NCBI GenBank assembly: GCA_006226495.1
Contig: SBGU01000052.1
Location: 1-64,000, forward strand
Source of the DNA: Alphaproteobacteria bacterium
GTDB taxonomy: Bacteria; Pseudomonadota; Alphaproteobacteria; Sphingomonadales; Kordiimonadaceae
Direction of reading: 5' to 3'
DNA length: 64,000 nt
Made by a program: the position numbers and the translations under genes. Positions 31,653 to 44,101 of this stretch are shown in pieces. Numbering within the stretch: position 1 is the first letter of the stretch; every line of letters starts with the position of its first letter. Below the pieces are notes generated by a model. It was not told the origin of the DNA and did not search any database. It saw only the letters and a program-made list of their open reading frames with translations.

Positions 31653-33995
31653 CTAACCGGCGGCGCGCTTGTAATGGCGGCGGCTGGGCCTGAGCTTGCG
31701 CGCGGTCTCCAGCGCTTTTTCATTGTCCTTTTCCGCCTCGCGCAACTGCTGGCCTTCACCGGTTTTATACTGGATCGGCCAATGCGGGTCGGCCACACCA
31801 TAATGCGCCGCCGCGCGCCGGGTGAAGGCGGGATCGTTCAGATGCAGGCGCGCGAGCGCCACCAGGTCGGCCCGGCCGGCCGCCAGGATGGTGTTCACCT
31901 GCGCGGGTTCGGTGATGGCGCCGACGGTCATGACCGGCAGGCCCGAGACATGGCGCACATAATCGGCAAACGGCACCTGATACATACGGCCATAAACCGG
32001 CGTCTGGTGGGGCACCGTCTGGCCCGTGGAAACATCAAGCAAATCCACGCCCGCCGCCTTGAAGGCCAGCGCATAGACTTCCAAGTCGTGCCAGCCAACA
32101 CCGCCTGGCGCCCAGTCCCAGGCCGACAGGCGCACCGACATCGGCTTGTGCGCGGGCCATACGGCGCGCATGGCTTCGAACACCTCAACGGGATACCGCA
32201 CGCGGTTTTCGGCGCTGCCGCCATAGGCGTCGGTGCGGCTGTTGGTGAGCGGCGACAGGAAGCTTGCCAGCAGATAGCCGTGGGCGCAGTGCAGTTCGAT
32301 CATGTCGAAACCGGCCCGGTCGGCGCGTATGGTCATATCGACAAATTCATCGCGGATACGGTCCATGCCGTCGCGGTCCAATTCCGCAGGCACCGCATTC
32401 ACGCCATCCCGGAACGGGATGGCCGACGCCGACACCAGGGGCCAGTTGCCTTCGTCCTTCGGCAGGTCGGACCCATGTTTCGGATGTTTGGTCGAGCCCT
32501 TGCGCCCGGCATGGCCCACCTGCAGGCAAACCCTGGTGGCGCCGTTTTCATGGACAAAATCGACAATATCGCGCCAGGCCTGTTCCTGCGCATCGTTCCA
32601 GAGGCCGGGGCAATAGTCGGTGATACGGCCATCGGGCGACGGGCAGGTCATTTCCGTGAACAACAGGCCGGCACCGCCAATGCCGCGCGCGCCCAGATGC
32701 ACCTTGTGCCAGTCGGTCGGCACACCCCGGTCGGCGGAATATTGCGCCATGGGGGCGACCACGACCCTGTTCGTCAGGGTCAGGTCCCGAAGTTTCAGGG
32801 GTGTGAACATCGGCGTGGGCGCCTTGCCGTCAGCCGGGCGGGCATAGTCGGGCAGGCCCGCATAATATTCCTGCTCCACCGCCTTCAGGAAAGAAAAGTC
32901 GCGCAAGCCAACATTATCCCAGGTGATGCTTTTGGAACGCGACATCAATGCGAAAGCGAACTCAAAGCGCGGTTTGGCCATATGGCGGGCCATCTGCTCG
33001 AACCAGCGCAGCGAAACATCCGCCGCATGCTGGATGATCTCAACCGGCGTGCGGCGTGCGGCCTCATACCCCGCCAGCGCCGCGGTCACATCGCCCCTTG
33101 CGGCCACCACCGCATCGGACAGGCCGATCGCACATTCCATGGCCAGCTTGGTGCCGGACCCGATGGACCAGTGTGCCGAAGCCTTGGCGTCGCCCAGAAG
33201 CACCATGTTGCCAACCGACCAGTTTTTGCAGCTCACACGCGGGAACTGGCGCCAGATGGACCGGTTGGTGACAAGGCCATGGCCATCGAGTTCATCCGCG
33301 AACACACCTTCGAGAAAACGCGCGCTTTCATCCTCCGACATGTCCGCAAACCCGCAGGCGGCGAAGGTTTCCGGCGTGCATTCGATCACCCAGGTTGACC
33401 GGCCCGCTTCATATTCATAGGTGTGTGCGCAGAAATGCCCTTCGGGCGTTTCCTTGAAGAAAAAGGTGAAGGCATCCAGAGGCTTTGTGGAACCCATCCA
33501 GGTGAAACGGTTCTTGCGGTTTTCGACCGTGCGGCCAAAGGCTTCGGCATTTGCTTCACGGATGGCGCTGCCGATACCATCGGCGACCACGATCAGGTCG
33601 CGGCCCGGCAGGTCTTCCTGCAGGCGGGCCGGATCGAGCCGTCGCCCGAAGCTGAGTTTCACGCCAACCTCGCGGCAGCGGCGGGTGAGGATATCGAGGA
33701 GCTTGAAGCGCGAACAACCGGCGAAGCCGTTGCCCCCGATGACCGTGCGGTCGCCCCGGTGGCTGACGACAATATCTTCCCAATAGGCGAAATGGCCGCG
33801 GATCAGGTCGTAACTTTCAGGGTCGGCGGCAAAAAATTCGTCGAGGGTTTCGTCCGAAAACACCACGCCGAAGCCGAAGGTATCGCCTTCCCGGTTCTGT
33901 TCGATGACCTCGATATCATAATCGGGGCAGGCTTTTTTGGTCAGAAGCGCAAAATAGAGGCCGCCCGGGCCGCCGCCAACAACGCTGATCTTCAT
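31653..33995 (-). CDS. Bifunctional aryl-CoA monooxygenase/reductase (2-aminobenzoyl-CoA or salicylyl-CoA type)
   Basis: Two-domain flavoenzyme of 780 residues. Residues 1-390 form an FAD monooxygenase (GGGPGGLYFALL at the N-terminus, LLGDAKASAHWSIGSGTKLA near 270). Residues 400-760 form an Old Yellow Enzyme type oxidoreductase (APMAQYSADRGVPTDWH, HCAHGYLLASFLSPLTNSR). This fusion is known from 2-aminobenzoyl-CoA monooxygenase/reductase of Azoarcus and from proteins annotated as salicylyl-CoA 5-hydroxylase. The first hydroxylates and then reduces the ring of an aryl-CoA. RidA overlaps its start by ATGA. Substrate is inferred from family and neighbours. Confidence 0.85.
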   Translation of the reverse strand: MKISVVGGGPGGLYFALLTKKACPDYDIEVIEQNREGDTFGFGVVFSDETLDEFFAADPESYDLIRGHFAYWEDIVVSHRGDRTVIGGNGFAGCSRFKLLDILTRRCREVGVKLSFGRRLDPARLQEDLPGRDLIVVADGIGSAIREANAEAFGRTVENRKNRFTWMGSTKPLDAFTFFFKETPEGHFCAHTYEYEAGRSTWVIECTPETFAACGFADMSEDESARFLEGVFADELDGHGLVTNRSIWRQFPRVSCKNWSVGNMVLLGDAKASAHWSIGSGTKLAMECAIGLSDAVVAARGDVTAALAGYEAARRTPVEIIQHAADVSLRWFEQMARHMAKPRFEFAFALMSRSKSITWDNVGLRDFSFLKAVEQEYYAGLPDYARPADGKAPTPMFTPLKLRDLTLTNRVVVAPMAQYSADRGVPTDWHKVHLGARGIGGAGLLFTEMTCPSPDGRITDYCPGLWNDAQEQAWRDIVDFVHENGATRVCLQVGHAGRKGSTKHPKHGSDLPKDEGNWPLVSASAIPFRDGVNAVPAELDRDGMDRIRDEFVDMTIRADRAGFDMIELHCAHGYLLASFLSPLTNSRTDAYGGSAENRVRYPVEVFEAMRAVWPAHKPMSVRLSAWDWAPGGVGWHDLEVYALAFKAAGVDLLDVSTGQTVPHQTPVYGRMYQVPFADYVRHVSGLPVMTVGAITEPAQVNTILAAGRADLVALARLHLNDPAFTRRAAAHYGVADPHWPIQYKTGEGQQLREAEKDNEKALETARKLRPSRRHYKRAAG

Positions 33996-34396
33996 TGTCC
34001 GGTCTCCATGGGCAGCACCGCCGTGGTTTCGATTTCAACCAGCGCCTTCGCCTCCATGAGCGCCGACACCGCGACACAGGCCATGGCCGGATAGTTTTTC
34101 CCCATCAGCTCGCGCCAGACTGCGCCCATACCCTTGAGGTTGGCGAGATACATGTCGCGATCGGTGACATACCAGGTCATGCGCACGATATGTTCGGGTC
34201 CGGCGCCCGCGGCCTGCAGCACCGCAAGGGTGTTCACGAGGGTCTGCCGAAGCTGGCCCAGGAAATCATCCGCCTCGAACACGCCTTCCGGGGTCCAGCC
34301 GATCTGGCCGGCGACAAACACCATGCGGCCCTCGGCCAGGATGCCGTTGGAATAGCCCGACGGGCGTGGCCAGCCTTCCGGCAGCAGGGTTTTCAT
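33992..34396 (-). CDS. RidA family enamine/imine deaminase-like protein
   Basis: The 134-residue product shows the RidA fold pattern: SNGILAEGRMVFVAGQIGW, QTLVNTLAVLQAAGAGPEHIVRM and YPAMACVAVSALMEAKALVEIE. RidA proteins hydrolyse reactive enamines and imines. Coupling by ATGA on both sides, to the thioesterase upstream and the monooxygenase downstream, suggests it clears the enamine made from an aminobenzoyl-CoA. The canonical catalytic arginine segment appears as MACVAVSAL rather than R-S-C-V, so activity should not be taken for granted. Confidence 0.85.
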   Translation of the reverse strand: MKTLLPEGWPRPSGYSNGILAEGRMVFVAGQIGWTPEGVFEADDFLGQLRQTLVNTLAVLQAAGAGPEHIVRMTWYVTDRDMYLANLKGMGAVWRELMGKNYPAMACVAVSALMEAKALVEIETTAVLPMETGQ

Positions 34397-34827
34397 GGCG
34401 TTATGTCCTTTTCTTCTGTTGCCATCCAGCGGCCCATGGCGGCACGCATATCGTCGGGCCAGGGCAGCGCGGCCCCGCTGGCCATGTCCATATGCACGAT
34501 CACCAGCTTCACCTTCAGCCGGTCTTCGCTATCTGCGCGGGCGGCGACAGCCAGATGGCAACTGGATGCGCCAAGGCGGGTGACCGCAAGGCTGAAGGTC
34601 AGCCTGTCGTGCATACGGCTGGGTTTCAGGAAATCGGCTTCGATATGGGCCGTGGGCACGGCGCGCTGTTCGTCTATGTGCAGGTGTTTGAAATCGAAGC
34701 CCAGGCCTTCGCCGAACCAGTCTTCGACCAGGTCGTTGATCAGCCCGAAATAGCGCGGATAGAACATGATGCCAGCCGCGTCCGTGTGCGCGAATCGGAC
34801 CTGAACCTGTTTTTCAAACGCTGCCAT
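34393..34827 (-). CDS. Hotdog-fold acyl-CoA thioesterase (4-hydroxybenzoyl-CoA thioesterase type)
   Basis: The 144-residue product begins with a strand and the motif FAHTDAAGIMFYPRYFGLIND, with the catalytic aspartate of the 4HBT family in HTDAAGI. SRMHDRLTFSLAVTRLGASS follows. It probably releases a CoA intermediate or rescues trapped CoA in the aryl-CoA pathway. It is the first gene of the block-A operon, 20 bases downstream of the 42-bp palindrome. Confidence 0.85.
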   Translation of the reverse strand: MAAFEKQVQVRFAHTDAAGIMFYPRYFGLINDLVEDWFGEGLGFDFKHLHIDEQRAVPTAHIEADFLKPSRMHDRLTFSLAVTRLGASSCHLAVAARADSEDRLKVKLVIVHMDMASGAALPWPDDMRAAMGRWMATEEKDITP

Positions 34828-34846
34828 TGTGCCTTCCCAGCCCGAA

Positions 34847-34888
34847 TTGTTGAGAAATTATTTTAGCACTAAATTAATTTCTCAACAA
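34847..34888 (-). promoter_or_regulatory. 42-bp palindromic operator upstream of the thioesterase operon
   Basis: Outer arms TTGTTGAGAAATTA and TAATTTCTCAACAA are perfect inverted repeats around the inner palindrome TTTAGCACTAAA; 19 of 21 base pairs match, with both arms centred on the same point. The inner 17 bases recur upstream of the SDR-MarR operon at 43243-43259. It sits directly before the thioesterase start. Likely the binding site of the MarR regulator in block B. Confidence 0.8.
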
Positions 34889-34926
34889 GGCATGTCATCC
34901 CGCTGCCGGAACGGTGTTCAAATAGC

Positions 34927-34959
34927 AAAAAATCCCGGTTTTCGGGGCAAAAACGGGAT
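34927..34959 (-). terminator. Leftward terminator hairpin without a leftward gene upstream
   Basis: On the minus strand the stem ATCCCG / CGGGAT, extended by T-A pairs, closes a GC-rich loop and is followed by TTTTTT. The gene to its right (35065-35685) runs rightward, so nothing seen here needs this terminator. It may insulate the block-A promoter. Confidence 0.55.
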
Positions 34960-35064
34960 CAGGTGAAAAAAGCTTGTGCGGCCCCGATACCATGGTTGTG
35001 CGATAATGCGCCCAGTGGTTGTCTGCCCGCGCGGCGGGCGGAGCCCCCATGGGAGCTATACAAA

Positions 35065-35685
35065 ATGCGTATCCTGATCCTGGTAGCAGCCACCGGCATG
35101 CTGGTAGGGTTCAACTCCAGCCTGCCCGGCCTTCAGCCGGCAGCCAATGCCCAGACCTTAACTGCCGAACAAACCCTTCAGGCCCAGATTTCCGCCCTCG
35201 CCCGCGCCGGCGATACGGCTGGCCTTTCGGCCCTGATCGACCGCGAGGTAACGGCCGGGCGGGCGGACATGCTGGCCAATATCGCCGAAAGTCTCGCGGA
35301 TATGGGCCTGACGATCGCAGGCGCCGACCCTGATGGTGCCACGGCCTTTGAGCTGGCCGCCATTCAGATTACCGGCAATGCCACCGTGCGCAGCCGCAAG
35401 CCCGGCCTGATCGCCACCGTCGGCCGTGCCGCGGGCCAGGTGCAGGCCCGGCTGGCAAGCTCGAGCCCGGCCAATGCAGCGCTGATTGCCGGTGCCGTTG
35501 CAGGCGCCAACCTTTCGGACCTGAGCCTCGCCTACAACCAGGGTGTCACGGCCTATGCCAGCACCAACCAGTCGACTGGTTCGACCGCGGGAGCAGGCAA
35601 TACAAGCAGGAATACCGGCAGTACGTCCGGGAGCGAAACCCCGGTCATCGTGCTCGAGAACCCGGATCAGGCCAGCCCGACCTGA
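35065..35685 (+). CDS. Secreted protein with ENPDQ-SPT tail (paralogue A)
   Basis: Not recognised. The 206-residue product has a signal peptide (ILILVAATGMLVGF...ANA-QT), a helical repeat-like middle (LQAQISALARAGDTAGLSAL, then MLANIAESLADMG and AGADPDG), a Ser/Thr/Gly linker with TGST repeats, and the C-terminal tail PVIVLENPDQASPT. A paralogue at 43442-44101 has the same architecture and a nearly identical tail. It stands upstream of gmd-fcl. The first ATG of the open frame is 34 codons further up but the signal peptide starts at MRILILV. Confidence 0.65.
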   Translation: MRILILVAATGMLVGFNSSLPGLQPAANAQTLTAEQTLQAQISALARAGDTAGLSALIDREVTAGRADMLANIAESLADMGLTIAGADPDGATAFELAAIQITGNATVRSRKPGLIATVGRAAGQVQARLASSSPANAALIAGAVAGANLSDLSLAYNQGVTAYASTNQSTGSTAGAGNTSRNTGSTSGSETPVIVLENPDQASPT

Positions 35686-35851
35686 TATCAGCCCCCGCCG
35701 GCGCCCGATATGCCGGCATGATTTTGGCCTGAACCCCAATGGTTTCGCCCATTTGCAAGTTTATTATTGCGGTGGGCGAAGCCACAGGCTTTATATGGAC
35801 CCGAACCTGATGGGCAGTTTTATTCAAATTCGATAATTTTTGGGGATTTCA

Positions 35852-36916
35852 GTGGCTAAAGTCGCGTTGATAACCGGTGTTACGGGGCAGGATGGGTCCT
35901 ATCTCAGTGAATTGCTTCTGGCGAAGGGCTATGAAGTGCATGGCATCAAACGCCGCTCTTCGTCCTTCAACACCGCACGGGTCGATCATCTCTATAACGA
36001 CCCGCATCTCGGCAAGCCGAATTTCCGCCTGCATTTTGGCGATATGACGGATTCCACCAACCTGATCCGCCTGGTGCAGGAAATCCAGCCGGACGAGATT
36101 TATAACCTTGCCGCCCAAAGCCATGTGCATGTGAGCTTCGAAACCGCGGAATATACCGCGAATGCCGACGGCATCGGCACACTACGGCTTCTGGAAGCCA
36201 TCCGCATGATGAAGCTTGAGGACAAGACCCGCTTCTACCAGGCGTCCACGTCCGAGCTTTATGGCCTGGTGCAGGAAGTGCCGCAACGGGAAACGACCCC
36301 CTTCTATCCGCGTTCGCCTTATGCCGCCGCCAAGCTTTATGCCTACTGGATTACGGTCAACTACCGCGAAGCTTACGGCATGCACGCCTCGAACGGGGTG
36401 CTGTTCAACCATGAAAGCCCGCGCCGGGGTGAAACCTTCGTTACCCGCAAGATCACCCGCGCCGTCGCCGCCATCGAATGCGGCCTGCAGGATACGCTCT
36501 ATCTCGGCAACCTGGATGCCAAGCGCGACTGGGGCCATGCCCGCGACTATGTCGAAGGCATGTGGCGCATCATGCAGACCGACAAGGGCGACGATTATGT
36601 GCTGGCCACGGGCGAAACCCATGCCGTGCGTGAATTTGTCGAACTGGCGTTCGCCGAGGTTGGCCGCACCATCGAATGGCAGGGCACCGGTGTCGATGAA
36701 ATCGGCGTTGACACCAAATCCGGCCAGGCGCTGGTGCGCATCGACCCGCGTTATTTCCGCCCGACCGAGGTGGACCTTTTGCTGGGTGACCCCGCCAAGG
36801 CACACCGCGAACTGGGCTGGAAACACACCACCAGCTTCCAGGACCTGGTGAAGGAAATGGTTGAAGCCGACCTCGCGAACGCCCGCAAGAACAGCAAGCA
36901 GGGCCATTCCGAATGA
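35852..36916 (+). CDS. gmd: GDP-mannose 4,6-dehydratase
   Basis: NADP-dependent conversion of GDP-mannose to GDP-4-keto-6-deoxymannose, the first step towards GDP-L-fucose. The 354-residue product from the GTG start has the Rossmann motif [15 protein letters not shown], the typical [11 protein letters not shown] region, and the catalytic YxxxK in [12 protein letters not shown]. The SELYG serine/threonine segment is also present. The alternative TTG start is four codons upstream. It overlaps fcl by ATGA. Confidence 0.95.
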
Positions 36917-37863
36917 CCCCGCCGATCTACGACCTGGCCGGCAAACGGGTGGTCGTCGCCGGACACCGGGGCATGGTGGGCGCGGCAACCGCCCGCCGGC
37001 TGGCCACTGAAGGCTGCACGGTCATCCCCATGGGGCGCGACCAGGTCGACCTCCGCCGCCAGGCTGAGGTGGACGAATTCCTGAAGGATACAAAGGCAGA
37101 CGCGCTGGTGCTGGCGGCCGCCAAGGTGGGCGGCATCATGGCGAACGCCACCTATCCGGCCGATTTCCTGTATGACAATCTGGCCATCGAGACCAACATC
37201 ATCCATGGCGCGCACCTGGCCGGCATCGGCAAGCTGCTGTTCCTGGGTTCGAGCTGCATCTACCCCAAGCTTGCGCCCCAGCCGATGACCGAAGACGCAC
37301 TGCTGACCGGCCCCCTGGAGCCGACCAACGAATGGTACGCCATTGCCAAGATCGCCGGCATCAAGCTGTGCCAGGCCTACCGGGCGCAATATGGCGCCGA
37401 TTATATCTCGGCCATGCCGACCAACCTGTATGGCCCCGGCGACAATTATAACCTGGAATCGAGCCATGTGATCCCGGCGCTCATTCGCAAGGCGCACATG
37501 GCGCGCGAAAGCGGCGCCAAATCCATGGAAATCTGGGGCACGGGCACGCCGCTTCGGGAATTCCTGCATGCGGACGACTGCGCGGACGCCTTGGTACACC
37601 TGTTGAAACATTATTCCGACGCACCGCATGTGAATGTGGGCTCTGGCTCGGAAATCACCATCGGCGACCTGGCCCGCATGGTCATGGAGGTGGTCGGCTT
37701 CAAGGGCGACCTGGTGTGCGACACCACAAAACCCGACGGCACGCCAAGGAAGCTGATGGACGGCGCGCGCCTTGCCGCCATGGGCTGGCAGCCGAAAATC
37801 GGCCTGCGTGAAGGCCTCGCCCACGCCTACCGCTGTTTCCTTGAGGAACAGGGCCGCCGCTGA
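36913..37863 (+). CDS. fcl: GDP-L-fucose synthase
   Basis: Epimerase/reductase that makes GDP-L-fucose from the Gmd product. The 316-residue product has [13 protein letters not shown] at the N-terminus, the [12 protein letters not shown] segment, and the catalytic tyrosine/lysine pair in [11 protein letters not shown]. It overlaps gmd by four bases. The fucose is presumably used by the polysaccharide locus 7 kb downstream. Confidence 0.95.
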
Positions 37864-38041
37864 GGCGTGCCCAAAACCGGCCCAAAACTGGCCCAACTGG
37901 GCCAGACCATGCCGCCTTTATGGTGCCTTTATGGCGGCGGCATGTGGGTCCAATCGACTTTTCATGCCGCCCGGCCCAGCATCAGCAGGCTAATGACGGG
38001 GTTCAGCAATCAGGCCATGCCCCGAATACGAGGGGCATATC

Positions 38042-38341
38042 ATGAACCGCAGCATCCTTCTGGCAACCGCCGCCTGCCTGGCACTGGGCGCCTGCAACGA
38101 CCTTCCCGACAATCCGGAAAGCAGCTTTGCCGCCATCGGCTCGGGCGAGGCCCTGGGCACACCGATTGCACAGCGACAAGAGGCCACCGCACCCGCGCGC
38201 GCCATCCCGGTCCGGGGTTGTGAACCGGCGCTGATCCAGCAATATGCGGCATCCCTGGGGGTGGCCCCGCGACCGGAGCCCAAAAGGCCTGAACCGGCGC
38301 CGGTTTATGACGGCGCCGGCCCGAGCCGCATGGCGGAATAG
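38042..38341 (+). CDS. Small predicted lipoprotein
   Basis: The 99-residue product has a lipoprotein signal peptide (MNRSILLATAACLALGAC) with lipobox LALG-AC, so Cys18 is the probable lipidation site. The mature part is Ala/Pro/Glu-rich with one further cysteine in RGCEPAL, then a proline-rich end (APRPEPKRPEPAP). Not recognised beyond this. It ends 16 bases before the convergent stop of the aryl-CoA ligase. Confidence 0.65.
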   Translation: MNRSILLATAACLALGACNDLPDNPESSFAAIGSGEALGTPIAQRQEATAPARAIPVRGCEPALIQQYAASLGVAPRPEPKRPEPAPVYDGAGPSRMAE

Positions 38342-38357
38342 GCCATGGCAAACGCCC

Positions 38358-39962
38358 CTATTGCTGGCGCAGCCGGAACCGCTGGATCTTGCCGGTCTGG
38401 GTTTTTGGCAGTTCATCCACGAACGCCACAGCACGCGGGTATTTATAGGGTGCGATGGTCGCCTTCACATGGGCCTGCAAGGCTTCAGCGAGCGCCGGGC
38501 CGGTTTCATGGCCGCTGGTGGCCACCACGAATGCCTTGACGATCTGGCCGCGCGCCGCGTCCGGCACACCGACGACCGCACATTCCGCGACGGCGGGATG
38601 CATCAGGAGCGCCGCCTCCACCTCCGGCCCACCGATATTATAGCCTGACGAGACGATCATATCGTCCGAGCGCGCGATGAAGCTGAAATAGCCGTCGGCG
38701 TCGTGATGATAGGTATCGCCCGTGATGTTCCAGCCATTCTGCACATAGTTTTTCTGCCGCGCGTCCGCCATATAACGACAGCCCGTGGGGCCCTTGACCG
38801 CAAGGCGCCCGGTCGCGGGCGGCGGCAGGATAGTGCCGTCTTCATCCAGCACGCAGGCCTGGTAGCCGGGCACCGGTTTGCCGGTATGGCCGGGGCGTAT
38901 CTCATGGGGTTTGGCGGAGATGAAGATATGGATCATCTCGGTCGCACCGATGCCATCCATCAATTTGAGGCCGGTCTTTTGGAGCCAGGCCTCGAAAATG
39001 GCCGCCGGCAGGGTTTCGCCGGCGGAGATGCAGGCGCGCAGGCTGGTGACATCGGCGCCATCCAGCTTTTCAAGAAGCGCCTTGTAGGCGGTGGGCGCCG
39101 TGAACAGCATGCTGACCCGGTGGCGGGCGATACAATCGAGCATGGCATCGGGGGTCGGCCCGTCCGGCAGCGCCACGGCAGCGCCAAAACGTGCCGGAAA
39201 TACCACGAGTCCACCAAGGCCAAAGGTGAAGGCAATGGGTGGCGAACCGGCAAACACGTCGGTTTCCACAGGGGCCAGAATGTGGCGGGCATAACCGTCC
39301 GCCATAATGAGGATGTCCCGGTGGAAATGCATGCAGGCCTTGGGTTTGCCCGTGGTGCCGGATGTGAAGGCCAGCAAGGCGACATCATCCTGCGCGGTCG
39401 CGACAGGGGCGAAGGCACCGGCCTTGGTGGCCATATGGGCTTCGAGCCCGGCACCGGGGTTGCCAAACCCCAGCACCCGCACGGGGGCCTTTGCCAGCTT
39501 GGCGCCACCCGCCATATCGTCCATCAGGTCGTTTTCCGAGAGCGCGATCGAGATTTCGGCGGCATCCAGGATGGTTGCCAGTTCGCCGGCCCTGAGCATG
39601 GGCATGGTGGTGACCACGACACCACCCGCCAACAGAACACCATACCAGGCCGCGATCATCATCGGTCGGTTGCGGCCCCTGAGAAGCACACGCCCGCCCG
39701 GTACCAGGCCCAGATCGTCCACCAGAACATGAGCTATGCGGCTGGCGGTTGTCTTCAGCTCGGCATAGGTCCAGCCACCACCGGTCCACAGCACCGCAGG
39801 CCGGTCCGGGCGGCCGCTGGCCAGCAAGTCTTCGGCGGCGTTCAGCCGTTCGGGATAGCGGAATTCGGGCAGGTCGAAGCACAGGTCCGGCCAGTCGGCA
39901 ACGTCCGGCAGCCGGTCGCGCGTGAAACTGTCGCTGTGCGCACTTCTGTACATGGTCCCCAC
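38358..39962 (-). CDS. Aryl-CoA ligase (2-aminobenzoate/benzoate-CoA ligase type)
   Basis: ATP-dependent activation of an aromatic acid to its CoA thioester. The 534-residue product has the P-loop TSGTTGKPKACMHFHRDI, motif DGIGATEMIHIFIS typical of the benzoate/2-aminobenzoate-CoA ligase group, SGYNIGGPEVEAAL and the C-terminal catalytic lysine in PKTQTGKIQRF. With the neighbouring genes, 2-aminobenzoate (anthranilate) is the leading candidate substrate. The start may be the ATG three codons in. It is 35 bases after the acyl-CoA dehydrogenase. Confidence 0.85.
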   Translation of the reverse strand: MGTMYRSAHSDSFTRDRLPDVADWPDLCFDLPEFRYPERLNAAEDLLASGRPDRPAVLWTGGGWTYAELKTTASRIAHVLVDDLGLVPGGRVLLRGRNRPMMIAAWYGVLLAGGVVVTTMPMLRAGELATILDAAEISIALSENDLMDDMAGGAKLAKAPVRVLGFGNPGAGLEAHMATKAGAFAPVATAQDDVALLAFTSGTTGKPKACMHFHRDILIMADGYARHILAPVETDVFAGSPPIAFTFGLGGLVVFPARFGAAVALPDGPTPDAMLDCIARHRVSMLFTAPTAYKALLEKLDGADVTSLRACISAGETLPAAIFEAWLQKTGLKLMDGIGATEMIHIFISAKPHEIRPGHTGKPVPGYQACVLDEDGTILPPPATGRLAVKGPTGCRYMADARQKNYVQNGWNITGDTYHHDADGYFSFIARSDDMIVSSGYNIGGPEVEAALLMHPAVAECAVVGVPDAARGQIVKAFVVATSGHETGPALAEALQAHVKATIAPYKYPRAVAFVDELPKTQTGKIQRFRLRQQ

Positions 39963-39997: not shown

Positions 39998-41173
39998 TTA
40001 TTCGCTGAGCAGTTGCCGCGCGATCACCAGTTTCTGGACCTCGGACGCGCCTTCATAAATGCGCAGCGCCCTGATCTCGCGGTACAGTTCCTCGACCTTT
40101 TCGCCCCGGGTGACGCCGCGCCCGCCGAACATCTGCACCGCCTTGTCGATGGTGGCCTGCGCCTGGTCGGTGGCATAAAGCTTGGCCATCGCGGCTTCGC
40201 GGGTGACACGCGGCGCCCCGCTGTCCTTGACCCAGGCCGCGCGGTAGATCAGCAGGGCCGAGGCATCGATATCGAGCGCCATTTCAGCAAGCCGTTCCTG
40301 CGTGATCGGCTGTTCGGCCAGCGGTTTGCCAAACAGGCTGCGTTCCCTGGTATGCGCGACCGCTTCATCAAGCGCGCGGCGCGCAAGGCCCAGGGCCGCG
40401 GCGCCGACGGTCGAGCGGAAGATATCAAGGGTGGCCATCGCCAGTTTGAAACCGGCGCCGCGCGTGCCCAGAAGATTGGCTTCCGGCACGGCACAGCCCT
40501 GAAAGAACAGGCGCGCCAGCGGATGCGGCGCCATCACCTCGATGCGTTCCTCAATCTCAAGACCCGGACAATCGGCATCGACCACAATGGCAGACAGGCC
40601 GCGCGCGCCCGCACCTTCGCCCGAGCGCGCAAATACGCAGTAAAAGTCGGCAATGCCGCCGTTCGAGATATAGGTCTTGTGCCCGGACACCAGATATTGG
40701 CCGGCAGGGCCGGCTTCCAGTTTCGTGGCGATCGACGCCACATCCGAGCCTGCTTCGGGTTCGGTGAGCGCGAAGGCCGCGATCCTGTCGCCGCGGGCGA
40801 CTGCCGGCAGGTATTCGGCCTTGATGGCGTCCGACCCCGCAAGCGTGATGGCACCCGAGCCCAGGCCCTGCATGGCAAAAGCGAAGTCGGCGAGGCCCGA
40901 ATGGCGCGCCAGGGTCTCGCGTATCAGGCACAGGCTGCGTACATCGAGCGTATTGAACATGCCGCCATAGGCCTTGGGCACGCAGTAGCGCAGCCAGCCG
41001 CCGGCCCCCAGCGCCTTCACAAGCGCGCGGCAGGTGGCGTCGACATCATCATGCGCGCCCGGTGCATCCACGATACCGGGCAGGGTTGCCGCGGCCCAGG
41101 CGTCCAGATCGGCGGCAAGGCGGCGGTAGCTGTCGTCGAAGAACGGCCAGGAAAGGAAGCTTGTGTCTGTCAT
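39998..41173 (-). CDS. Acyl-CoA dehydrogenase
   Basis: FAD-dependent alpha,beta-dehydrogenation of an acyl-CoA. The 391-residue product has the family segments [15 protein letters not shown] (FAD-binding), [16 protein letters not shown], a C-terminal [11 protein letters not shown] and the catalytic-glutamate loop [19 protein letters not shown]. In this cluster it probably acts on an alicyclic CoA after ring reduction. Its start overlaps the crotonase stop (TGATG). Confidence 0.88.
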
Positions 41174-41982
41174 CAGTCGCCCTCGAACACCGGTTTTTCC
41201 TTGGCAACAAACGCATGGTAGGCGCGTTCGAAATCCTTCGTCTGCATGCAGATGGCCTGCGCCTGGGCTTCCGCCTCGATGGCGGCATCAAGCCCCATGT
41301 CCCATTCCATATTGAGCTGGTTTTTGGTCATGCCGTTCGCGAACGTCGGGCCTGCGGCCAGGCGCGCCGCCAAATCCATGGCTTCAGGCATCAGCCTGGC
41401 CTTGTCGACGATGCGGTTGAAATAACCCCAGCGTTCGCCTTCATCGGCACTCATGGTGCGGCCGGTGAACAGCAGTTCCGACGCCCGGCCCTGGCCGATG
41501 ATACGCGGCAGGATCGCACAGGCGCCCATGTCGCAGCCGGCGAGCCCGACCCGGTTGAACAGAAAGGCTGTTTTGGCCTCAGGCGTCGCGAAGCGAAGAT
41601 CCGACGCCATGGCCATGATCGCGCCCGCACCGACGCTGATGCCGTCCACCGCCGCGATGATCGGCTGGGGCGCGCCGCGCATGGCCTTGACCAGATCGCC
41701 GGTCATGCGGGTGAATTTGAGGAGGCCCGGCATGTCCATGCCCACCAGCGGGCCGATGATTTCATGCACGTCGCCGCCAGACGAGAAATTGCCCCCGGCG
41801 CCCGACAGTACGATCACCTTCACCTCGGGCACATAGACGAGCGCGCGGTACAGGTCCCTGAGCTCTGCATAACTTTCAAACGTCAGCGGGTTCATGCGTT
41901 CCGGGCGATTGAGGGTAATGGTGCCGATCCCCGATTTGAACGACCAGAGGAAATGCTTGGGCTTGTATTTTTTCGGGTCCAT
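41173..41982 (-). CDS. Crotonase-family protein lacking both hydratase glutamates
   Basis: The 269-residue product has a crotonase fold ([12 protein letters not shown], oxyanion-hole region) but replaces the two catalytic glutamates with Ile122 ([12 protein letters not shown]) and Arg144 (LFNRVGLAG). It has Asp151 in [15 protein letters not shown], where MenB and the ring-opening hydrolase BadI carry FDAGYG. A true hydratase is unlikely; ring hydrolysis or another carbanion-type reaction fits the pathway better. The start ATG is [11 protein letters not shown]; the open frame extends 27 codons further. Confidence 0.8.
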
Positions 41983-42001: not shown

Positions 42002-42460
42002 CTATGAATGGGCGCCGTCGAGCTTGTCGAGGAGCCGGGCCAGGGTCTGCTGTTCGTCGGCATTCAGGCGCCCGAACAGGTTTTCGACCCATGCCGCATG
42101 GTCGGCGGCCATTGTTTCAAACAGGGCATGGCCCTTCGCCGTCAGCCGCGCGGTCGCGACCCGACCGTCGTGCGCGCTGGCGATTCGTTCTGCCAGCCCG
42201 TCTTCAATCAGCGGGCTCAGGACCTGGGTGACATTGCCGTTCGATACCATCAATTGTTTCGACAGGTCGCTGAGCCGGACACCATCGTCCGGCGCACGAT
42301 ACAGGTTCGCCAGTACATCGAAGCGCGACAGGGACAGGCCGTGGCTGGCCTGCAGCCGTGTCTGAAGTACCTTGCGCACCTGGTTCGAACTGCCCAGAAG
42401 CTTCAGCCAGGTGCGGAGTGCCGTCTGCTGACGTGCCGTGATGCCGGGATGCTGGGCCAT
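42002..42460 (-). CDS. MarR family regulator of the aryl-CoA cluster
   Basis: The 152-residue product has a MarR winged helix: [18 protein letters not shown], recognition helix [18 protein letters not shown] and wing [16 protein letters not shown] at MAQHPG overlaps the SDR stop by one base (TAATG). Members next to aromatic-CoA genes usually repress until the CoA thioester binds. The palindromes at 34847-34888 and 43243-43259 are its likely operators. The ligand is unknown. Confidence 0.85.
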
Positions 42461-43224
42461 TACATCACCTCCCCGCAGGCAACGGCAATCGCCTGCCCGT
42501 TGATAGCGGAGGCGGAGGCGCCCGCAAGCCAAAAAACCGTGTCGGCCACTTCTTCGGGGCGCACCAGCCGGCCTTCGGGATTTGTGCGGGTCATGGCAGC
42601 AAGCGCGGCTTCCTCGCTGCGGCCGGTTTTGGCGACGATATTGGCCACCGAATTGCGCACGATGTCAGTATCTGTGAAACCCGGGCAGACGGTGTTGGCC
42701 GTCACACCCGTGCCCGCGAGTTCAAGCGCCAGCGACCGGGTCATGCCCACCACACCATGTTTGGCGGCCGTATAGGCCGCCGTGTAGGCATAGCCTTTCA
42801 GGCCCGCGGTGCTGGCAATGGTGACGATACGGCCAAAACCAGTCCCCGTCATGTGCGGCAGCGCCGCACGCGCACACAGGTAGGCGCCGGTCAGGTTCAC
42901 GGCCAGCATGCGTTGCCAGAGCCCAGTATCGGTCCGCACGAAGGGCGCGGTTTCGGCGGCACCGGCATTATTGACCAGAATGTCGGGCATCCGGCCCGTG
43001 GCCGCCAGTTCCGCAAATCCGGCCCCGACCGAATCTTCGTCGCAGACATCCATCACAAGCGCATGGCTACCCGGCAATCCTGCGGCCGCGTCGCCCAGCC
43101 TGTCGGCCGAGCGGCCCGCAAGGATAACGCCGTATCCGGCCGCATGGAACCGCCGGGCGATTGTATGCCCGATGCCTGAGCCACCGCCGGTTACCAGAAT
43201 ATTCAAGGGTTTGGCTGCCATCAT
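42460..43224 (-). CDS. Short-chain dehydrogenase/reductase
   Basis: NAD(P)-dependent oxidoreductase of 254 residues from MMAAKPLN. It has the Rossmann motif TGGGSGIGHTIARRF, the NNAGAAE segment, and the catalytic triad Ser (IASTAGLKG) and YxxxK (YTAAKHGVVGMTRSLA). It ends GQAIAVACGEVM, a typical SDR tail. It probably oxidises the hydroxyacyl-CoA or a ring alcohol in the aryl-CoA pathway. It is the first gene of the block-B operon and lies 19 bases downstream of the shared operator. Confidence 0.88.
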   Translation of the reverse strand: MMAAKPLNILVTGGGSGIGHTIARRFHAAGYGVILAGRSADRLGDAAAGLPGSHALVMDVCDEDSVGAGFAELAATGRMPDILVNNAGAAETAPFVRTDTGLWQRMLAVNLTGAYLCARAALPHMTGTGFGRIVTIASTAGLKGYAYTAAYTAAKHGVVGMTRSLALELAGTGVTANTVCPGFTDTDIVRNSVANIVAKTGRSEEAALAAMTRTNPEGRLVRPEEVADTVFWLAGASASAINGQAIAVACGEVM

Positions 43225-43242
43225 CTTCTCCCCGCCAAATTG

Positions 43243-43259
43243 TTTTAGCACTAAATTAA
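43243..43259 (-). promoter_or_regulatory. Second copy of the TTTAGCACTAAA operator, upstream of the SDR-MarR operon
   Basis: TTTTAGCACTAAATTAA is identical over 17 bases to 34861-34877. Partial outer symmetry (CAA-TT on the left, AA-TTG on the right) also matches the palindrome design. It sits 19 bases before the SDR start, where a repressor would block the promoter. Confidence 0.78.
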
Positions 43260-43441
43260 ATTGTGTGCAATCGGGCATGGGTCCGGCAAGCTGTGGCAGA
43301 TGGGCCGCACCCTGTGGCGCGAATGCCCTATCAGCCTGAAAAGCCGATTATTTTTTTGACTCAGGGCAGTCTTTATGGGACTTTGGCCTTAACTATGCGC
43401 TGCAGGTGACTGCGGCGGTGATTTTGACATCACGGAGCAAA

Positions 43442-44101
43442 ATGATGCGTTTGGCTATTTTGATTGCAGCTTTCGGCCTTGCGGCCACCGTCCCGGCGCT
43501 TTCGCCGGTATTCGCCCCTGCCGCCCAGGCGCAGGCAGTTTCCTCGCAGGTTGAGCAAAACCAGCTTCAGGCGCAGATCATTGCGCTGGCGCAGGCTGGC
43601 CAGACGGACCAGATCAAAGACCTCGTGGCCCTGAAGATCCGCCAGGGCAAGGCCGGCATGGTTGCGACCGTTGTCAAGGCGATTGCCACCATGGGCGCGA
43701 ACCTTGCGGGCGTGGACCCGACCAATGCGGCCACCCTGGTGAACATCGCCGTCGTCCTGGCAGCCGACCCTGCCGTCAGCGGTGCTGACAGCACCGTGGA
43801 ATCGGTCGTGGGTGACCAGGCCAAGGCCGCGGTTGTGACCCTGCAGACCTCGACCAACCCGAACGCCATTGCCGCATCGGCCTCGATCCAGACCAACGTT
43901 GCGAACAACGGTTCGTCCAGCACGCAGCAGACCTATGTCGCCAGCACCGGCGGCACGACACAAAATACCGGCTCGACCCAGACCACGACCAACCAGAACC
44001 AGCAGGGAAACACCGTGGTTGTGGTGAACGGCAACAATAATAATGTGACCGTTGACCCGGTTATCGTGATCGAGAACCCGGACCAGTCCAGCCCGACCTG
44101 A
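43442..44101 (+). CDS. Secreted protein with ENPDQ-SPT tail (paralogue B)
   Basis: Not recognised. The 219-residue product has a signal peptide (LAILIAAFGLAATV...AQA), a helical middle with LQAQIIALAQAGQTDQIKDL, MVATVVKAIATMG and AGVDPTN, and a Thr/Asn/Gln-rich linker with Gly and Ser (about 150-195). The tail is PVIVIENPDQSSPT. It is a paralogue of 35065-35685, and the tail is identical at 12 of 14 residues. It is the first gene at the left edge of the polysaccharide locus and is followed by a terminator. Confidence 0.65.
   Translation: MMRLAILIAAFGLAATVPALSPVFAPAAQAQAVSSQVEQNQLQAQIIALAQAGQTDQIKDLVALKIRQGKAGMVATVVKAIATMGANLAGVDPTNAATLVNIAVVLAADPAVSGADSTVESVVGDQAKAAVVTLQTSTNPNAIAASASIQTNVANNGSSSTQQTYVASTGGTTQNTGSTQTTTNQNQQGNTVVVVNGNNNNVTVDPVIVIENPDQSSPT

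Follow-up and report, generated by a model that had tools for sequence, protein, structure and literature searches.

The 17-base sequence TTTTAGCACTAAATTAA, which stands in front of two operons in the window (the whole 64,000-nucleotide stretch of Kordiimonas DNA analyzed here), is very probably the operator of the MarR-family protein encoded in one of them. Judged from the sequence and its context, a MarR dimer would bind there and repress three operons of aerobic 2-aminobenzoyl-CoA (abm) and kynurenine (kyn) metabolism by promoter occlusion until a metabolite releases it. This proposal is built on computed properties of the sites: their identity, their rarity, their conservation, their placement on predicted promoters, and their covariation with the recognition helix of the regulator.

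TTTTAGCACTAAATTAA has exactly two matches in the window, compared to none expected from 100 shuffles, which bears out the claim of the first-pass annotation that the 17-mer at one operon recurs exactly at the other (Table 1). Its core, TTTAGCACTAAA, is a perfect 5+2+5 inverted repeat (TTTAG-CA-CTAAA), and an alignment of 14 abm/kyn sites extends the palindrome to ATTTAnTTTAGNNCTAAAnTAAAT. The two copies have the same orientation, and each faces a minus-strand operon. Operator A lies 33 bases from the ATG of the thioesterase gene; operator B lies 18 or 21 bases from the SDR gene, depending on whether the start codon is at 43224 or at 43221 (ATGATG), so the earlier placement of the repeat just before the SDR gene stands, and its figure of 19 bases was close.

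Table 1. Candidate operators, predicted promoters, and genes of the two window blocks and their neighbors.
Feature	Coordinates	Strand	Remarks
Candidate operator A	34861..34877 (core 34862-34873)	-	upstream of the thioesterase-RidA-monooxygenase operon
Candidate operator B	43243..43259 (core 43244-43255)	-	upstream of the SDR-MarR-ECH-ACAD-CoA ligase operon
Predicted promoter A	34860..34888	-	-35 TTGTTG (34888-34883), 17 bp, -10 TAAAAT (34865-34860); overlaps operator A
Predicted promoter B	43242..43270	-	-35 TTGCAC (43270-43265), 17 bp, -10 TAAAAC (43247-43242); overlaps operator B
Acyl-CoA thioesterase (4HBT_2)	34393..34827	-	first gene of block 1
RidA-type enamine/imine deaminase family protein	33992..34396	-	block 1
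Flavin monooxygenase + old-yellow-enzyme reductase fusion, 2-aminobenzoyl-CoA monooxygenase/reductase type (ACMR)	31653..33995	-	780 residues
SDR dehydrogenase	42460..43224	-	first gene of block 2
MarR-family regulator, proposed repressor	42002..42460	-	start codon overlaps SDR stop (TAATG)
Enoyl-CoA hydratase family protein	41173..41982	-	NF006107, above cut-off
Acyl-CoA dehydrogenase	39998..41173	-	
Benzoate-CoA-ligase-family ligase, probable 2-aminobenzoate-CoA ligase	38358..39962	-	TIGR02262 365 bits, cut-off 375.25
Secreted-protein paralog beside operator A	35065..35685	+	divergent
Secreted-protein paralog beside operator B	43445..44101	+	divergent

What do the two blocks encode? Their gene content fits the aerobic 2-aminobenzoyl-CoA (anthranilate) pathway, whose abm genes are reportedly the subject of work by Schuhle et al. 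from 2001. In profile scores, the N-terminal half of the fusion protein is VioD-like and the C-terminal half is Oxidored_FMN. Against NF006101 (salicylyl-CoA 5-hydroxylase), the fusion scores 993.7 bits, under the cut-off of 1078; therefore, its probable substrate is deduced from the arrangement of its domains, from the RidA protein next to it, and from the regulon, and the presence of RidA would fit an enamine intermediate. The regulator scores above the cut-offs of two family profiles (MarR_2, 44.4 bits against 27; MarR, 34.4 bits against 24.6), and its predicted model (mean pLDDT 90.3) has a helix at residues 74-86, the predicted recognition helix, within which residue 79 falls, and two strands. 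The best solved match to the MarR profile is 3boq (108 bits vs. 59 for the next), a MarR-family entry presumably from Silicibacter pomeroyi, for which the Protein Data Bank listing gives neither function nor operator.

How rare is the site? Genome-wide, the exact 12-mer TTTAGCACTAAA is confined to the two window places, with a single further place when one mismatch is tolerated. The palindromic pattern TTTAGNNCTAAA (TTTAG-NN-CTAAA) has four perfect places in the 4.32-Mb genome: the two window sites, C60:61559, and C13:16906. The scan that the first-pass annotation had proposed, with many unrelated copies as the outcome that would refute its claim, thus returned four copies only, three of them fronting genes of a single pathway. 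The fourth (C13:16906), inside a hairpin-like stretch just upstream of a sensor-kinase reading frame, is probably a chance occurrence; it is not a conserved target in the relative HF-Din21, because the only palindromes of that genome are its three abm/kyn ones. At up to one mismatch, the pattern has 12 places in the window genome vs. 74 for a reversed control pattern, and no abm or kyn genes were recognized by eye at the eight one-mismatch places. Six genomes of the same genus that have neither the monooxygenase nor a close MarR relative (G002, G003, G005, G013, G017, and G018) hold 0, 1, 1, 0, 2, and 0 palindromes, i.e., 4 in ~22.8 Mb, or ~0.8 expected per 4.32 Mb; G007 and G008, which have a distant MarR only, hold 6 and 8. 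Counts alone prove little because the control pattern is commoner and because of the copies in G007 and G008: the palindrome is not over-represented as such, and what is non-random is the location of its copies.

The third of these locations, C60:61559, lies 38 bases upstream of a match to kynA (tryptophan 2,3-dioxygenase), downstream of which follow a formamidase-like reading frame (kynB, by reading) and then kynureninase (kynU; C60:58826-59986, above the family cut-off). The kynA-kynB-kynU operon yields anthranilate, on which the window pathway presumably acts; if the window blocks encode an anthranilate pathway, a site at kynABU therefore makes metabolic sense. A perfect repeat is present at kynA, unlinked to marR, in four of the five genomes with an orthologous MarR (the window genome, Kordiimonas marina, K. 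gwangyangensis, and HF-Din21); no palindrome was found at the kynA promoter of the fifth, NORP107 (G001). Nor was a perfect site found at kynA of G003, which is 81% identical and belongs to a genome with no close MarR relative. In G003, which also lacks the monooxygenase, a two-mismatch word, TTTAAGGCCAAA (L097:2367-2378), occupies the position of the relatives' perfect repeat at the kynA promoter and is possibly a decayed site. Control of kyn looks lineage-specific, since at 17 kynA loci in other lineages, in which kynA may not be the first gene, a single upstream region has a perfect TTTAN4TAAA; among the distant MarR loci described below, none of 13 kynA upstream regions has a perfect TTTA-N4-TAAA.

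The relatives compared were K. marina (G011), K. gwangyangensis (G010), K. sediminis, K. laminariae, and several MAGs, including HF-Din21 (G004), NORP107 (G001), and NORP254. K. marina has a single, unsplit SDR-MarR-ECH-ACAD-ligase-TE-RidA-ACMR run with one site, upstream of SDR. In K. gwangyangensis the run is split, and there are three sites, one at SDR, one immediately ahead of marR, and one at TE; HF-Din21 has two, at the SDR and TE promoters; NORP254 has one site, before marR; and in NORP107, the MarR is present and the operon site has one mismatch. The extra operator between SDR and marR in K. gwangyangensis (L167:9958-9969) suggests that marR has a controlled promoter of its own there. 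The five genomes with an orthologous MarR hold perfect palindromes at 21 places in total, and 12 of these are at abm/kyn promoters (3 of 4 in the window genome, 2 of 3 in K. marina, 4 of 7 in K. gwangyangensis, 3 of 3 in HF-Din21, and 0 of 4 in G001). The other nine are, by reading, at gene ends or inside reading frames (five) or upstream of or between non-abm, non-kyn genes (four). Those in the relatives (K. marina 1, K. gwangyangensis 3, G001 4) are divided five to three in the same way. Palindromes outside abm/kyn could be chance occurrences or unrecognized targets. One of them, an exact TTTAGCACTAAA in G001 (L145:2089-2100; G001:C50:24088), lies between divergent unrelated genes, by reading a transporter and a PLP-dependent enzyme, and might be an additional target in this genome, which has no site at kynA.

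If a repressor binds these sites, what would it block? Both window operators overlap predicted promoters (Table 1). A generic promoter scan supports promoter A, although in a register displaced by three (TTGAGA-17-AATAAT), and makes no call at promoter B. The 14-site alignment, made of sites picked because they precede abm (10) or kyn (4) genes, includes the one-mismatch G001 site and leaves out eight extra perfect palindromes of the relatives; within this selection, TTG stands exactly 15 bases upstream of the repeat in 9 of the 10 abm sites (9 of 14 overall; shuffled mean 0.22), the exception being K. gwangyangensis SDR, with TGG in its place. In these nine abm sites, TAAAAT, TAAAGT, or TAAAAC is found 17 bp past the TTG hexamer, within the right half-site; this -10-like TAAAAT is not independent evidence because it is part of the conserved operator. 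All four kynA sites have a TTGnnn-17-TAnnnT promoter at -37, and the repeat falls on the start-site region, after the predicted -10. Both arrangements would be those of a polymerase-excluding repressor.

Each window operator also has a secreted-protein paralog on its other side. The two paralogs are 32% identical and signal-peptide-like, with low-complexity tails ending in ENPDQxSPT; only two copies of the family were found in the genome, each ~186 bp from one operator, and such a neighbor adjoins 8 of 10 abm operators in the genus (NORP254 judged by eye). Does the repeat, then, belong to the promoters of these divergent genes and not to the abm operons? G007 lends this idea a further example, in which a perfect TTTAGCCCTAAA (L279:5253-5264; G007:C1:2776252) precedes a secreted paralog by 67 bp in a neighborhood devoid of abm genes; the abm MarR of G007 has the Gly-type helix described below. 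We nevertheless consider it very improbable: the marR site of K. gwangyangensis and the SDR site of HF-Din21 have no adjoining paralog, the kynA sites likewise yielded none, and in G009, which does have a paralog, the 12 kb fetched contain no TTTAN4TAAA. Moreover, the window sites lie 18-33 bases from the abm starts but ~186 bases away from the paralogs, and the predicted promoters that they overlap are directed at abm. Control of the secreted paralogs alone was rejected, given sites without a paralog and a paralog without the word; dual control of the abm operons and the secreted paralogs is possible.

The flanking paralogs raise another question: are the two identical sites functionless leftovers of a segment duplication? 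The paralogs do suggest a duplicated piece carrying one gene, but a good alignment of the two window intergenic regions is limited to 26 bp surrounding the operator (24 of 26, E 8e-8; the next best is 9 bp), the remainder having diverged, and relatives keep the site at both promoters, which makes the idea of a functionless remnant hardly credible. That the window has two sites is probably the outcome of an operon split in which the operator was retained: the blocks were probably once a single operon, whose second half kept or gained an operator. In the window, the ligase and thioesterase genes are separated by ~3.5 kb (34828-38357) holding plus-strand genes, and in K. marina the two matches are ~10 bp apart. 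By reading, the genes in the window gap are GDP-mannose dehydratase-like, fucose synthase-like, and a small lipoprotein; the K. gwangyangensis gap holds different genes, hemerythrin-like and S41 peptidase-like, also by reading. In the simplest story, the divergent gene would have been duplicated together with the operator into the operon, splitting it while leaving its second half in the regulon, and K. marina would either never have had the insertion or have lost it.

Does the association extend to more distant bacteria? Among the best 80 of 86 genome loci with a MarR relative, the gene order ACMR-SDR-MarR-ECH is found in 47 and SDR-MarR-ECH-ACAD in 58. A word with at most two mismatches from TTTAG-NN-CTAAA is present in 64 of 143 upstream regions vs. 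9.5 expected. With the five core loci excluded, a perfect TTTA-N4-TAAA is present in 40 of 137 distant upstream regions (0.62 expected, first-order Markov) and missing from 97; six control words of matched composition or wrong spacing occur in 0-3 of the 137. Some of these words are counted from both sides of divergent pairs, and they represent 38 distinct places in 29 of 73 loci; the ACMR upstream regions of the distant loci carry the perfect word in 23 of 59 cases. Four abm clusters (L203, L204, L209, and L174) have two TTTAN4TAAA words between divergent genes, 15-31 bp apart start to start, which suggests paired dimer sites. Where both the recognition helix is readable and a perfect word is present, Gln after NGNVT goes with G5+C8 operators in five of five pairings, and Gly in none of 26. 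This covariation would link the MarR protein to the site; the Gln form is a single clade and hence one event.

Could a different protein read the repeat? Another regulator, e.g., a global or kynurenine-specific one, might use it as an operator, with the operon MarR reading something else: the kynA sites are unlinked to marR, the tie between the MarR and the site is a sequence-based one, and G007 and G008, with their distant MarR only, are rich in palindromes. This explanation is nonetheless unlikely. Each of the six genomes of the genus that lack both the monooxygenase and a close MarR relative has just 0-2 copies of the palindrome, and in G003, one of these six, a similar kynA has no perfect site in front of it; the helix residue covaries with the operator bases, and the word family goes with MarR clusters in other lineages. 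Finally, the reading frames listed from the fetched stretch, inspected by eye, include no evident regulator next to kynA. The view of the first-pass annotation, that the two blocks form one regulon with autoregulation by the MarR, is thus supported: three of the four genome copies front genes of one pathway, the operator is conserved at orthologous promoters, including the one directly before marR in K. gwangyangensis, and the operator and the recognition helix appear to change together. Missing from that annotation were the third target kynABU, the promoter geometry, and the finding that both blocks are one operon in a relative.

From these observations we infer binding, repression, the ligand, the substrate, and the history of the regulon. 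With MarR as the repressor, its dimer would bind the palindrome ATTTAnTTTAGNNCTAAAnTAAAT and cover the spacer and the -10 at both abm promoters and, at that of kynABU, the start-site region; RNA polymerase would be excluded from all of them. In the presence of tryptophan or anthranilate, the repressor would be released by a metabolite of the pathway, and three operons would open together: kynABU, SDR-marR-ECH-ACAD-CoA ligase, and thioesterase-RidA-monooxygenase. The SDR operon includes marR; therefore, the regulator would also control its own synthesis. By likeness to BadR (see below), the ligand is most likely 2-aminobenzoyl-CoA, with anthranilate second. A broader scheme, which we regard as conceivable and rather doubtful as a whole, would have (i) one MarR sensing 2-aminobenzoyl-CoA, a CoA thioester far down the pathway, and controlling the entire route that starts at tryptophan, passes through kynurenine and anthranilate, and ends with the attack on the ring; (ii) an operator code readable across Proteobacteria, with Gln accompanying G5/C8 and Gly going without; and (iii) an operator that spread within the genus when a segment with a divergent promoter was duplicated, an event that split the operon but left the two halves under common control.

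Among systems already worked out, BadR comes closest. According to the accessible part of its description, BadR of Rhodopseudomonas/Aromatoleum is a MarR repressor of cyclohexanecarboxylate degradation whose effector is the first CoA thioester of its pathway (PMC9795900). The two systems share a short inverted repeat with a 2-bp spacer and, on the reading proposed here, a MarR-type repressor of a CoA-thioester ring-degradation cluster; the BadR repeat overlaps predicted -35 boxes (same part of PMC9795900). They differ in the operator, CAATnnATTG in that account vs. TTTAGnnCTAAA here, and in the pathway; in the present case, the predicted targets also include an upstream pathway encoded at an unlinked locus. 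The abm genes of the aerobic 2-aminobenzoyl-CoA pathway are described in Azoarcus evansii, Arthrobacter, and Cupriavidus, in which a 2-aminobenzoyl-CoA monooxygenase/reductase is accompanied by an anthranilate-CoA ligase, as is probably the case here; in the accessible parts of these sources, no operator for the pathway was found (PMC3534580, PMC8879955). Another parallel, again from the accessible text, is HmgS, a predicted MarR regulator of hmgAB in Alteromonadales and Pseudoalteromonadales: it too heads a MarR regulon for aromatic amino-acid breakdown deduced by comparative genomics, but acts on the tyrosine pathway and not on the tryptophan-anthranilate route (PMC5343134). The main text of that survey of proteobacterial regulons has no match to "kynureni" or "anthranil." MarR control of auxin breakdown is the subject of PMC9613470, insofar as its text is accessible. 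In the literature searched, which covered few subscription journals, no described regulator or operator for an abm cluster was recognized. The proposed regulon would thus be new and of a type already known; the abm enzymes themselves are already known.

For a catabolic cluster common to many Proteobacteria, the analysis puts forward a candidate regulator together with its operator and the class of its ligand. The proposed three-operon regulon is directly testable and probably exemplifies an operator that survived the splitting of its operon, and its MarR could act as a sensor for anthranilate metabolism.
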